Source: Phreatobacter sp. (lineage in GTDB: Bacteria; Pseudomonadota; Alphaproteobacteria; Rhizobiales; Phreatobacteraceae). Taken from it: 58,621 nucleotides of DNA. Numbering within the stretch: the first letter of the stretch is position 1; every line of letters starts with the position of its first letter. Made by a program: the position numbers and the translations under genes. Positions 11,925 to 14,435 of this stretch are shown piece after piece. Under the pieces are notes generated by a model. It was not told the DNA's origin, searched no databases, and worked only from the letters and a program-made list of their open reading frames with translations. The stretch covers positions 1 to 58,621 of the forward strand of contig NZ_JAPZTZ010000002.1 in the NCBI RefSeq assembly GCF_027532945.1, read 5' to 3'.

Positions 11925-12049
11925 GGTCCCGGCGACACGCGGCAAGCCCCCGGACGGCCCTTGGTTGGGATCCGGGGCGAGGCTTTGCCCGACATCACGC
12001 TATTGCGTTCACCCGCGCAGCGGGTCCCTGTTTCCACGACTTGACCCCC

Positions 12050-12200
12050 GGGATGGCGAGGCGCATAGGCGCCTGACGATCCCCCCGGGGATTGCCCACC
12101 CGCGACGGAACCCCATGCCCAGCGACAGTCCTGATCGATCGTCTGTGCCGATGCGGCGCGCGGGCTAGTCCGACCCCGGACCCTCGCCGCCGTATCGGCG
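12050..12200 (+). promoter_or_regulatory. Structured 5-prime leader of mgtE (candidate Mg-responsive RNA)
   Basis: Several hairpins follow one another: an outer GGGAT (12050-12054) with ATCCC (12079-12083) enclosing AGGCGC-ATAG-GCGCCT (12059-12074); GTCCG-ACCC-CGGAC (12168-12181); and CGCCG (12185-12189) with CGGCG (12196-12200), just before the ribosome-binding site of the upstream ORF. The segment GGCGAGGCGC faintly recalls the start of M-box (ykoK) RNAs, but other M-box consensus blocks are not recognisable. Function is inferred from its position ahead of a Mg transporter. Confidence 0.4.
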
Positions 12201-12214
12201 CGAAGAGGTCCTGC

Positions 12215-12388
12215 ATGAACATCGATATCCTTGCCGCGCGTGGCCCCGGCCGCGTGTCCTGGCCATTGCCACTGCCGATCCCCGTTCCGCATCGCGCCGG
12301 CCGCCGGCGACGAAGACCTGCGCCTCATCCCCTCCCGGGATCCCGCCGCACCGTCCTTTCGTCTCCCGCTGCCGGAGCCATGCCATGA
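12215..12388 (+). CDS. Proline/arginine-rich upstream ORF (putative mgtE leader peptide)
   Basis: 57-codon ORF with a good ribosome-binding site (AGAGG, 6 nt before the ATG) that ends in ATGA overlapping the mgtE start codon by 4 nt. The peptide has 12 prolines, including the alternating run WPLPLPIPVP (residues 16-25), then five consecutive arginines (30-34) read partly by CGA-CGA-AGA, rare codons in this GC-rich sequence, then RPAPHPLPG. In Salmonella, the proline-rich MgtL peptide couples slow translation at low Mg to expression of mgtA; the composition here is reminiscent. No homology is claimed, and chance coding in GC-rich DNA is possible. Confidence 0.5.
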   Translation: MNIDILAARGPGRVSWPLPLPIPVPHRAGRRRRRPAPHPLPGSRRTVLSSPAAGAMP

Positions 12389-13755
12389 CCCGCCTCCTCT
12401 CGCTCGACCGCCTCGCCATGCGCCGTCCCGCCGCGCTCCCGACCCTGATGGAGCCGGTGCCGGACATCGTCGACCGCCTCAACGACCTACCCCTCATGGA
12501 GGCCGCCGCGGCGCTCGCGGCGCTGCCGCCGGCCCATGCGGTGGAGGTGCTCGACCAGGCGGCGCTGGAGCGCGGCGCCGACATCCTCGTGGCGTTCGAC
12601 CGGACGCTGGCGGCGACGCTGCTCGCCGGCATGTCCGCCGACCGGGCCGCCGACCTCATCGGCGCCGTGGGGCCGGCCGACCGCCTCGCACTGATGGGGC
12701 GGCTCGACGCCGAGACGCGCGCTGGCCTCGACCGGCTGCTCGCCTATCCGGAAGGCACCGTCGGCTCGCTGATGACGACGGAGGTCGTCACCGTGCCCTC
12801 GACCCACACGGTCGGCGAGGCGCTGGACCATGTGCGCCGCGTCGAGCGGACGCGCGAGACCGTCTATGCCGTCTTCGTGCTGGACGCCGTGACCGGCGTG
12901 CTGCTCCATGCCGTGCCGCTGCGCCGGCTCGTCGCCTGCGACCCGGCCGCGCCCGTCCTCGCCGCTGTCTCCGAGCGGCCGATGGTGACGGTGGAGGCCA
13001 ATGCGCCGGCCGACGAGGCGGTGCGCATCGTCGCCCGCCACGACTTCCTCGCCGTGCCGGTGGTGGATGGCGGCGGGCACCTGCTCGGCATCGTCACGGT
13101 GGACGACGTGCTCGACACGATGATCGCGCGGCAGACCGAGCAGGTGCAGCGCATGGGCGGCATGGAGGCAATGCACCAGTCCTACTGGCGCACCGGCTTC
13201 TGGCAGATGCTGCGCAAGCGCGGCGGCTGGCTCTCCATCCTGCTGGTCGGCGAGATGATGACGGCGAGCGCCATGCAGGGCTTCCAGGGGGAGCTGGAGA
13301 AGGCCATCGTCCTGTCGCTGTTCATCCCGCTGATCATGAGCTCGGGCGGCAATTCCGGCTCGCAGGCCGCCTCGCTGGTGATCCGCGGCCTTGCGCTCGG
13401 CGATATCCGCCTTGCCGACTGGTGGCGCGTCGCCTTGCGCGAACTGCCCTCGGGCCTGGCGCTTGGCGCCCTGCTCGGCGTCATCGCGGTGGCGCGCATC
13501 GTGCTGTGGCAGCTCTTCGGCATCTACGACCACGGGCCCCACTGGCCGCTGGTGGCGGCGACCATCGGCCTCGCGCTCGTCTGCATCGTCACCTTCGGCT
13601 CGATGAACGGCTCGATGCTGCCCTTCTTGCTGAAGCGCCTCGGCTTCGACCCGGCCACGGCCTCCGCGCCCTTCGTGGCGACGCTGGTCGATGTCTCCGG
13701 CCTCGTCATCTATTTCAGCGTGGCGCTGGTGGTGCTGCGCGGCACGCTGCTGTGA
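12385..13755 (+). CDS. mgtE: Magnesium transporter MgtE
   Basis: 456-aa inner-membrane Mg2+ channel. It has an N-terminal superhelical domain (about 25-130), paired CBS domains (about 130-250, beginning LMTTEVVTVPS and ending LLGIVTVDDVLD) and a C-terminal domain of about five membrane helices. The conserved pore motif IMSSGGNSGSQAASL is present. In MgtE proteins the N and CBS domains bind Mg and close the pore. GGAG lies 7 nt before the ATG, inside the upstream ORF, with which the gene shares an ATGA overlap. It converges on the 13777-14202 gene with a 21-nt gap. Confidence 0.95.
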   Translation: MTRLLSLDRLAMRRPAALPTLMEPVPDIVDRLNDLPLMEAAAALAALPPAHAVEVLDQAALERGADILVAFDRTLAATLLAGMSADRAADLIGAVGPADRLALMGRLDAETRAGLDRLLAYPEGTVGSLMTTEVVTVPSTHTVGEALDHVRRVERTRETVYAVFVLDAVTGVLLHAVPLRRLVACDPAAPVLAAVSERPMVTVEANAPADEAVRIVARHDFLAVPVVDGGGHLLGIVTVDDVLDTMIARQTEQVQRMGGMEAMHQSYWRTGFWQMLRKRGGWLSILLVGEMMTASAMQGFQGELEKAIVLSLFIPLIMSSGGNSGSQAASLVIRGLALGDIRLADWWRVALRELPSGLALGALLGVIAVARIVLWQLFGIYDHGPHWPLVAATIGLALVCIVTFGSMNGSMLPFLLKRLGFDPATASAPFVATLVDVSGLVIYFSVALVVLRGTLL

Positions 13756-14359: not shown

Positions 14360-14435
14360 TGGTGCCCGGGGGCGGAATCGAACCACCGACACTGCGATTT
14401 TCAGTCGCATGCTCTACCAACTGAGCTACCCGGGC
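14360..14435 (-). tRNA. tRNA-Phe (GAA)
   Basis: A 76-nt cloverleaf reads on the minus strand from GCCCGGG (acceptor) through the D-arm GCTCAGTTGGTAGAGC, an anticodon stem TGCGA/TCGCA with loop CTGAAAA (anticodon GAA), the T-arm GGTTCGATTCC and the matching acceptor strand, with discriminator A. The 3-prime CCA is encoded in the DNA (14360-14362). Confidence 0.97.

Follow-up and report, generated by a model that had tools for sequence, protein, structure and literature searches.

Comparison with related genomes indicates that positions 12041-12214 of the 58,621-nt stretch of Phreatobacter sp. DNA analysed here (the window) probably belong to an order-wide mRNA leader, in which a short upstream open reading frame (uORF) would act as an attenuator for Mg2+ import genes. 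In the best reading of these comparisons, the leader is convergent with the mgtL and mgtQ attenuation of Salmonella. Judged at the sequence level, the leader is conserved, its uORF keeps its frame and is enriched in rare codons, the complementarity of both its helices is retained, and it is shared by MgtE, MgtA and CorA-type genes. The order is called Hyphomicrobiales here, since the named carriers of the leader belong to it. The elements of the locus are as follows.

12041-12045, plus strand: TTGAC, -35-like element of a probable leader promoter, at -74 from the uORF
12115-12168, plus strand: uORF of 17 codons, MPSDSPDRSSVPMRRAG followed by a stop codon, the probable sensor, with conserved start motif, acidic residue and a match to leader model R1
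12144-12158, plus strand: arm A, in the 3' half of the uORF, able to form 15 consecutive pairs with arm A'
12178-12182, plus strand: arm B (GGACC), the anti-Shine-Dalgarno arm, pairing with arm B' (permutation test)
12188-12202, plus strand: arm A' (CGCCGTATCGGCGCG), pairing with arm A and so competing with the B:B' hairpin
12207-12211, plus strand: arm B' (GGTCC), overlapping the Shine-Dalgarno sequence AGAGG at 12204-12208
12215-12388, plus strand: 57-codon ORF, its ATG at the position of the relatives' mgtE start, seen in this genome only
12385-13755, plus strand: mgtE, MgtE magnesium transporter of 456 aa (TIGR00400; Pfam MgtE_N, CBS and MgtE)

The mgtE product scored 296 bits against TIGR00400, above the cut-off of 232.75, which places it in the MgtE family. 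The gene has a GGAG of its own at 12374-12377, and its frame is open back to 12169, with no ATG, GTG or TTG in that extension. A second, more distant MgtE (30% identity) is encoded elsewhere in the same genome (G000:C28:151510-152613), and a tRNA gene lies on the minus strand of the window at 14363-14435.

Conservation and distribution of the leader

Close orthologs of the window mgtE (at least 51% identity) were found in at least 57 of 397 genomes of the order, the window's own included; the gene is present in 3 of the 12 genomes of the genus. Since the ortholog search scored four candidates per genome, the counts are lower bounds. The uORF start motif, allowing up to two mismatches, was present upstream of 52 of the 57 orthologs, with L057, L065 and L110-L112 counted as misses, and the consensus of the mgtE upstream regions reads [AT]TG-[CT]CN-AGC-GAC-AGT-NNN-AGT-CGA.... 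L110 and L111 come from two small genomes of the order (1.5-1.6 Mb), which have kept this mgtE behind an AT-rich region that has no leader. Counted from the first base of the stop codon of the uORF, the transporter start lies 43-84 nt downstream in 51 of the 52 leaders, and in the 51 mgtE leaders it stands directly behind an arm complementary to the segment just after the uORF. L107, which has the uORF with the main start 113 nt away, is counted among the 52 and kept out of the leader set described below.

A leader sequence model, R1, was built from 36 of 41 non-redundant leaders. It matches the window leader, which is itself among the 36, at E = 4.5e-7, and this match at the window mgtE is the only one it gave in the genome. 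Across the 397 genomes of the order R1 gave at least 78 matches at E of 1e-5 or less, 49 before mgtE and 29 before other genes; here nine candidates per genome were scored under strict filters, so that these counts are lower bounds as well. The leader set used throughout comprised 80 members, of which 51 are mgtE leaders and 29 stand in front of other genes. The 80 exclude the named plasmid leaders (L187 and L189-L192), and a scan of genome contigs yielded 8 loci, none of which entered the analysis.

None of 25 loci of more distant MgtE proteins had both the start motif and the core (L020 matched the start motif with one mismatch, and L025 matched the core with three). Upstream of a further distant mgtE (39% identity; L115, G302:C1:1058100-1058900) lies ATGGACGACAGTTCCAGTCGG, which resembles the uORF start and was missed by the pattern; from this example, the leader may reach beyond the counted set. 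In class-wide searches, the exact leader pattern was absent from all 385 genomes screened, of which 380 are outside the order, this pattern being insensitive (it overlooks the window and recovers just 31 of the 397 order genomes). A strict search of 318 genomes with R1 at 1e-5 gave two matches, in the window's genome and in one other genome of the same order. No leader was found by pattern search at L188 (Methylobacterium bullatum), and at L192 a leader precedes an mgtE-like frame that is broken off (73 aa).

The uORF and its codons

All 80 leaders have an ATG or TTG start with an in-frame stop, giving uORFs of 14-23 codons, as a uORF-dependent attenuator would need; among the first 55 leaders the start was ATG in 52 and TTG in 3. 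Asp or Glu occurs within codons 3-5 in 79 of the 80, the exception being L113. Glu replaces Asp in L109, and GAT codons are used in L153-L155 and L172. Of 55 leaders, 43 have Pro and 12 have Ser at codon 2. The common core holds one acidic residue (MPSDS), and neither repeated acidic residues nor an EPDP motif are part of it; two adjacent acidic residues occur in some leaders only, for example MPDD and MSDDD. A CGA landmark is missing from 7 of the 80; in each of the other 73 it is in frame, 21, 18 or 15 nt away from the start codon, whereas the spacers after the uORF stop are spread over the three frames (32/26/22). A codon-sized deletion in the uORF core, giving DSSR for DSxSR, was seen in L096-L098, L108 and L156-L165.

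The uORFs depart strongly from the codon use of the transporter genes. Within codons 4-11, 142 of 203 Ser codons are AGT and 82 of 94 Arg codons are CGA; in 32 mgtE genes the corresponding numbers are 17 of 790 and 7 of 888. The window uORF carries GAT in place of the second AGT, which counts against the attenuator reading. Past the core the peptide drifts, with 113 non-synonymous and 31 synonymous codon differences in 25 independent pairs, and the uORF differences in these pairs show no third-position excess (80/69/54). On these figures, part of the uORF conservation may be at the RNA level.

GGAA, GGAG, AGGA or GAGG was found within 22 nt of the uORF in 61 of 80 leaders, and many uORFs have no obvious Shine-Dalgarno sequence. 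In 70 of the 80 a TTGAC stands upstream of the uORF at a distance of at most 130 nt, in 68 of these at -72 to -110; the number expected from shuffles of the 79 leaders with enough sequence was 5.9. Since this element recurs upstream, the first ORF on the mRNA is probably the uORF.

The 57-codon ORF upstream of mgtE

A preliminary description of this DNA had proposed a Mg2+-responsive leader peptide in the 57-codon ORF that adjoins mgtE. What it reported of the sequence is accurate. The ORF runs from ATG 12215 to 12388, an AGAGG lies at 12204-12208, 6 nt 5' of this ATG, the TGA shares 12385-12388 with the mgtE start codon in an ATGA overlap, and the product, MNIDILAARGPGRVSWPLPLPIPVPHRAGRRRRRPAPHPLPGSRRTVLSSPAAGAMP, contains 12 Pro and 10 Arg. 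The ORF includes a CGA-CGA-AGA run, of codons that are indeed rare in the window (CGA 1.1% and AGA 0.3% of Arg codons). The peptide is without any Pro-Pro pair, and the reading frame stays open 5' as far as TTG 12092.

The chance background was taken as the 174 ATG-started ORFs of 40-110 codons in the window, which has 70% GC, the 57-codon ORF itself included. A Pro plus Arg content at least as high was found in 30 of the 174, and 7 matched the ORF in Pro and in Arg separately; 22 had five Pro inside ten residues, 2 had five consecutive Arg, and the 57-codon ORF alone combined a Pro-rich stretch with five consecutive Arg. An overlapping upstream ORF of at least 40 codons was present at 28 of 105 ATGA-started open frames of at least 150 codons (this one counted). 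By these counts the ATGA overlap is ordinary and the Pro/Arg composition uncommon, yet inside GC-rich expectation. With codon statistics derived from 39 long ORFs in the window, the log-likelihood across the ORF was -28.9, which denotes non-coding usage. Its first ten codons are coding-like (+5.9), and the coding signal of mgtE is clear only from ~12395 onward.

The description itself took loss of the ORF in close relatives that keep mgtE as refuting it, and this is what the comparison showed. In the closest mgtE orthologs, those of the genus members G005 and G011 (69% identical), it is missing and MgtE begins directly at the homologous ATG; the orthologs read are without a 57-codon ORF at that ATG. 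Querying the other 11 genus genomes with the DNA of 12205-12400 gave, among the matches listed, only partial ones of ~60 nt or less, the best at E = 1.2e-4 and none of them at mgtE. Overlooked had been the conserved short uORF at 12115-12168, which ends 46 nt 5' of 12215, and the fact that 12215 is the position of the relatives' mgtE start codon. The 57-codon ORF was ruled out as a conserved Mg2+ leader on the ortholog starts, the non-coding codon use and the lack of a genus counterpart among the matches listed. The wider idea of a convergent, uORF-based, Mg2+-responsive switch before mgtE is well supported, not for the named ORF but for the 17-codon MPSDS... uORF with two competing helices; what this uORF conserves is the early Pro or Ser with an acidic residue and the rare AGT and CGA codons, not a Pro/Arg-rich stretch. 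The 57-codon ORF is probably translated, since it is located behind the conserved leader. Because relatives start mgtE at the homologue of 12215, it would be either a genome-specific product of an altered mgtE start region or an assembly error.

Competing helices and the predicted switch

Complementarity between the arms was assessed by permutation. The real mean for A:A' was attained in none of 2000 permutations with 41 leaders and in 1 of 5000 with 55 leaders and one more uORF codon included, and the real mean score for B:B' in none of 5000 with 55 leaders, all three figures being uncorrected for relatedness. Examples of B:B' pairs are GGCTCACC/GGTGAGCC, GGCTCGCC/GGCGAGCC, GGTTCACC/GGTGAACC and CAACTCGC/GCGAGTTG, compared with GGACC/GGTCC in the window. 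RNAalifold found no consensus structure in a MAFFT alignment of the 55 leaders or of 41 of them, and the helices therefore rest on the permutation tests and constrained folds. Two further pairings were considered and dropped: AGTCGA with the anti-Shine-Dalgarno arm, which by eye fits many leaders and not the window, and, inside the core of the uORF, a CGAC/GTCG stem that on inspection by eye is disrupted in several members.

In the constrained folds a ribosome footprint of 29 nt was kept unpaired and pseudoknots were excluded. The mean predicted accessibility of the Shine-Dalgarno sequence over 55 leaders was 0.56, 0.52 and 0.34 with codons 3, 5 and 8 in the P site, 0.36 with the ribosome at the stop codon and 0.44 with no ribosome. 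The folds thus predict a switch between the two helices, with the Shine-Dalgarno sequence more exposed when the ribosome is paused at codons 3-6 than when it is at the stop. Predicted accessibility was higher at codon 5 than at the stop in 46 of the 55 leaders, by more than 0.1 in 28; a difference of more than 0.1 the opposite way was obtained in 3, and the difference was no more than 0.1 in 24. When spacers were swapped between leaders, the mean difference between codon 5 and stop was at most 0.041 in 25 swaps, against 0.155 for the real leaders. For the window the predicted values were 0.88 (codon 5), 0.37 (stop) and 0.39 (no ribosome). In several DSSR leaders the range of ribosome positions with a predicted open Shine-Dalgarno sequence ends roughly one codon sooner, which is expected if pause site and arm A shift together.

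Genes behind the leader

The first gene was read behind all 29 non-mgtE leaders, and further genes behind some only; one or two proteins per client type were scanned against profiles, and the other proteins were classified by eye. Behind two of the 29 a recognised Mg2+ gene was seen, a number that speaks against a Mg2+ reading. At L175 and L176 the leader is followed by an ORF of 94-105 aa and then by an MgtA-type Mg2+ ATPase (1392 and 1391 bits against TIGR01524, cut-off 610.75). L176 continues with another ORF and an MgtC family protein (PF02308, 1.2e-38) that passes the Pfam cut-off and is below the NCBIfam equivalog cut-off (208.6 versus 255). In Shinella zoogloeoides (L187) the order is leader, 83-aa ORF and MgtA (TIGR01524, 1382 bits). 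On two plasmids of Microvirga ossetica and in Microvirga sp. VF16 (L189-L191) it is leader, 75-aa protein and CorA-type transporter. All three CorA-type proteins have PF01544, and that of L190 is annotated as magnesium transporter CorA family; NCBIfam corA was the best match of the two that were scanned, below its cut-off (168.6 and 172.6 versus 200.75 bits). Falling below the NCBIfam cut-offs makes the substrate or role of the CorA-type and MgtC proteins less sure. Three Mg2+ import families are given as known before 2014, namely CorA, MgtE and MgtA/MgtB (PMC4072509).

The proteins of 83-105 aa that stand between leader and mgtA (L173/L175, L169/L176 and L187) share an NPxTGRxECRW-like motif; the one scanned, from L187, had no Pfam match. 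Another small protein type is the commonest client, 15 of the 29 leaders preceding proteins of 64-99 aa with one clear hydrophobic stretch and mostly an ...LVFAPV.G.H-like motif, which by eye resemble the protein that precedes CorA in Microvirga. Proteins of this hydrophobic-stretch type stand directly behind the leader at L066, L067, L150, L156-L166, L174 and L189-L191. The three members of the hydrophobic-stretch type that were scanned had no Pfam match; we regard the type as candidate Mg2+ homeostasis proteins. The remaining clients are double ABC permeases (4), DUF1003 proteins (3), OprB porins (2), Iron_permease-like proteins (2) and one unknown, with the double ABC permease, OprB, DUF1003 and Iron_permease-like loci being L151, L152, L167, L090, L087, L172, L153-L155, L168 and L170. 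Given this client set, Mg2+ is the best common denominator and not a proven signal.

Alternative explanations

Two alternatives concern the 57-codon ORF. That the ORF is itself the peptide sensor of Mg2+, its slow Pro codons and rare Arg codons coupling it to mgtE, is very improbable. The ORF does have a good Shine-Dalgarno sequence, the ATGA overlap, a place behind the conserved leader that makes its translation likely, a CGA-CGA-AGA run of codons rare in the window, and a pairing of Pro-rich stretch and five Arg that no other of the 174 ORFs has; however, it is absent from every ortholog read, among them the two genus members that share this leader and mgtE, and it lacks a genus counterpart among the matches listed, coding-like codon use and any Pro-Pro. 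The odd start in the window might instead be an assembly artefact, a false indel having split an N-terminally extended mgtE into the 57-codon ORF and mgtE. This we consider doubtful, if worth serious attention: the mgtE frame is open back to 12169 with no start codon there and the split was seen in no relative read, but the upstream leader and the downstream mgtE are intact, and an indel alone does not account for the segment because no single frame is coding-like across 12245-12394. An artefact of this kind would concern the 57-codon ORF only, not the leader, and is compatible with the attenuator reading.

The other two concern the leader itself. It could be a riboswitch for a metal or other ligand, or a protein-binding element, in which the short ORF is incidental; the strong nucleotide conservation of GCGACAGT-NNN-AGTCGA, the CGAC/GTCG stem that is possible by eye, the missing third-position excess, the Mg2+ transporter genes downstream and the Shine-Dalgarno-sequestering hairpin are all consistent with this. 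On the other hand, start and core stay in frame across codon-sized indels while the spacer does not, Glu can stand for Asp, GAT for GAC and TTG for ATG (3 of 55), by eye the CGAC/GTCG stem does not hold in several members, the switch predicted by folding varies with the position of the ribosome, and the leader has no Rfam match, the M-box included, so that we give this explanation little credence. The leader could also sense general translation stress or a scarcity of the tRNAs that decode AGT and CGA, with Mg2+ genes being only some of its clients. The rare codons of the uORF and the porins, ABC permeases and small proteins among the clients would suit that, and the uORF leader of a DUF1127 gene in Sinorhizobium meliloti is described as responding to impaired translation (PMC12218461). 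Yet MgtE, MgtA, an MgtC family protein and CorA-type proteins form a specific set, and the Microvirga leaders have a CorA-type gene right after a small protein of the commonest type; a general stress sensor is thus improbable. We retain the Mg2+ attenuator as the preferred reading, against which also count the five orthologs that have no leader, the uORFs with no obvious Shine-Dalgarno sequence, the negative RNAalifold result and the 24 leaders with a predicted difference of no more than 0.1.

Comparison with known systems

Known Rfam elements in the leader, the M-box (ykoK) included, were ruled out, as no covariance model matched there. At gathering score the window contained the tRNA only, and lax settings added two sub-threshold matches to unrelated families inside 12304-12337. 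Fourteen loci gave three matches to other families, none inside a leader; of these, BjrC1505 in L048 (3306-3456) was above its gathering score. A literature search returned no description of such a leader among the matches listed, as judged from titles and the openings of abstracts, with few subscription journals covered.

Salmonella mgtQ, in the mgtC-mgtB intergenic region, resembles the leader as predicted here in that a short ORF overlaps alternative stem-loops, one of which hides the transporter Shine-Dalgarno sequence, in having acidic residues near the N-terminus and in controlling translation; it has 8 codons and a strong Shine-Dalgarno sequence and lies inside an operon, and its peptide, transporter, lineage and helix order all differ (PMC8092293). 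Unlike mgtQ, the leader probably has its own promoter, draws on AGT and CGA, both rare, and stands before transporter genes of several unrelated families. MgtL of E. coli and Salmonella mgtA has Pro and acidic residues at the very start of its uORF, and ribosome drop-off at low Mg2+ switches its RNA structure, as in the mechanism proposed below; its EPDP motif and Rho-dependent transcription control are its own. The leader differs from MgtL in its MPSD, MPDD or MPGD start, usually with one acidic residue, and in its predicted Shine-Dalgarno switch. For both mgtQ and MgtL, early acidic residues are described as lowering leader translation and raising transporter synthesis (PMC8092293, PMC11282234).

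The M-box riboswitch, including a Mycobacterium tuberculosis M-box with a uORF, also occupies the 5' leader of Mg2+ genes (PMC12810186), whereas the present leader is without an Rfam match to any family. The 'mgtE motif' riboswitch candidate of Thioalkalivibrio likewise lies upstream of mgtE, with Shine-Dalgarno sequence and AUG at the bottom of a stem; it is reported exclusively from Thioalkalivibrio, with no uORF mentioned in the portion available, and is set apart here by description (PMC11109978). The duf1127-1 leader of Sinorhizobium meliloti is a rhizobial leader controlled by translation of a uORF, as is proposed here. By description, it differs in its gene and in acting through transcription attenuation, presumably with Rho (PMC12218461).

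Proposed mechanism and implications

In the preferred reading, the uORF at 12115-12168 would be translated first. Arm A would pair with A' just before the Shine-Dalgarno sequence, and A:A' would compete with the B:B' hairpin that hides it. When Mg2+ is sufficient, the ribosome would reach the uORF stop codon and cover arm A, B:B' would form and the transporter would be off. When Mg2+ is low, the ribosome would pause or drop off at the early M-[PS]-x-[DE]-S-(x)-S-R codons, with their rare AGT and CGA; arm A would then be free, A:A' would form, the Shine-Dalgarno sequence would open and the transporter would be made. We infer low Mg2+ as the cause of the pause from the controlled genes and from MgtL and mgtQ, and Mg2+ as the signal, expression at low Mg2+, stalling or drop-off and coupling should all be taken in this sense. 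In the window's genome the freed start codon at 12215 would begin the non-conserved 57-codon ORF, and mgtE would be read by translational coupling through the ATGA or from its own GGAG at 12374-12377.

Leader-peptide sensing of Mg2+ is known from enterobacteria, and uORF attenuators of Mg2+ genes are thus already known in kind; what would be new here is the leader's own peptide, codons and helices and its wider set of clients. If the reading is true, a sequence-unrelated and mechanistically similar device found throughout an order of Alphaproteobacteria would strongly suggest that evolution has converged on Mg2+ sensing by the ribosome. We see roughly even chances that one uORF cassette, with a pause site of rare codons and early acidic residues, serves as the shared Mg2+ sensor of the order, placed before MgtE, MgtA with MgtC, CorA and membrane proteins of 64-99 aa that are perhaps new Mg2+ homeostasis factors. 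Because one cassette precedes three unrelated importer families, the leader may help, as a tag, to locate further genes of Mg2+ handling in this order, and such a tag could also reach the small membrane protein type, whose three scanned members have no Pfam match.
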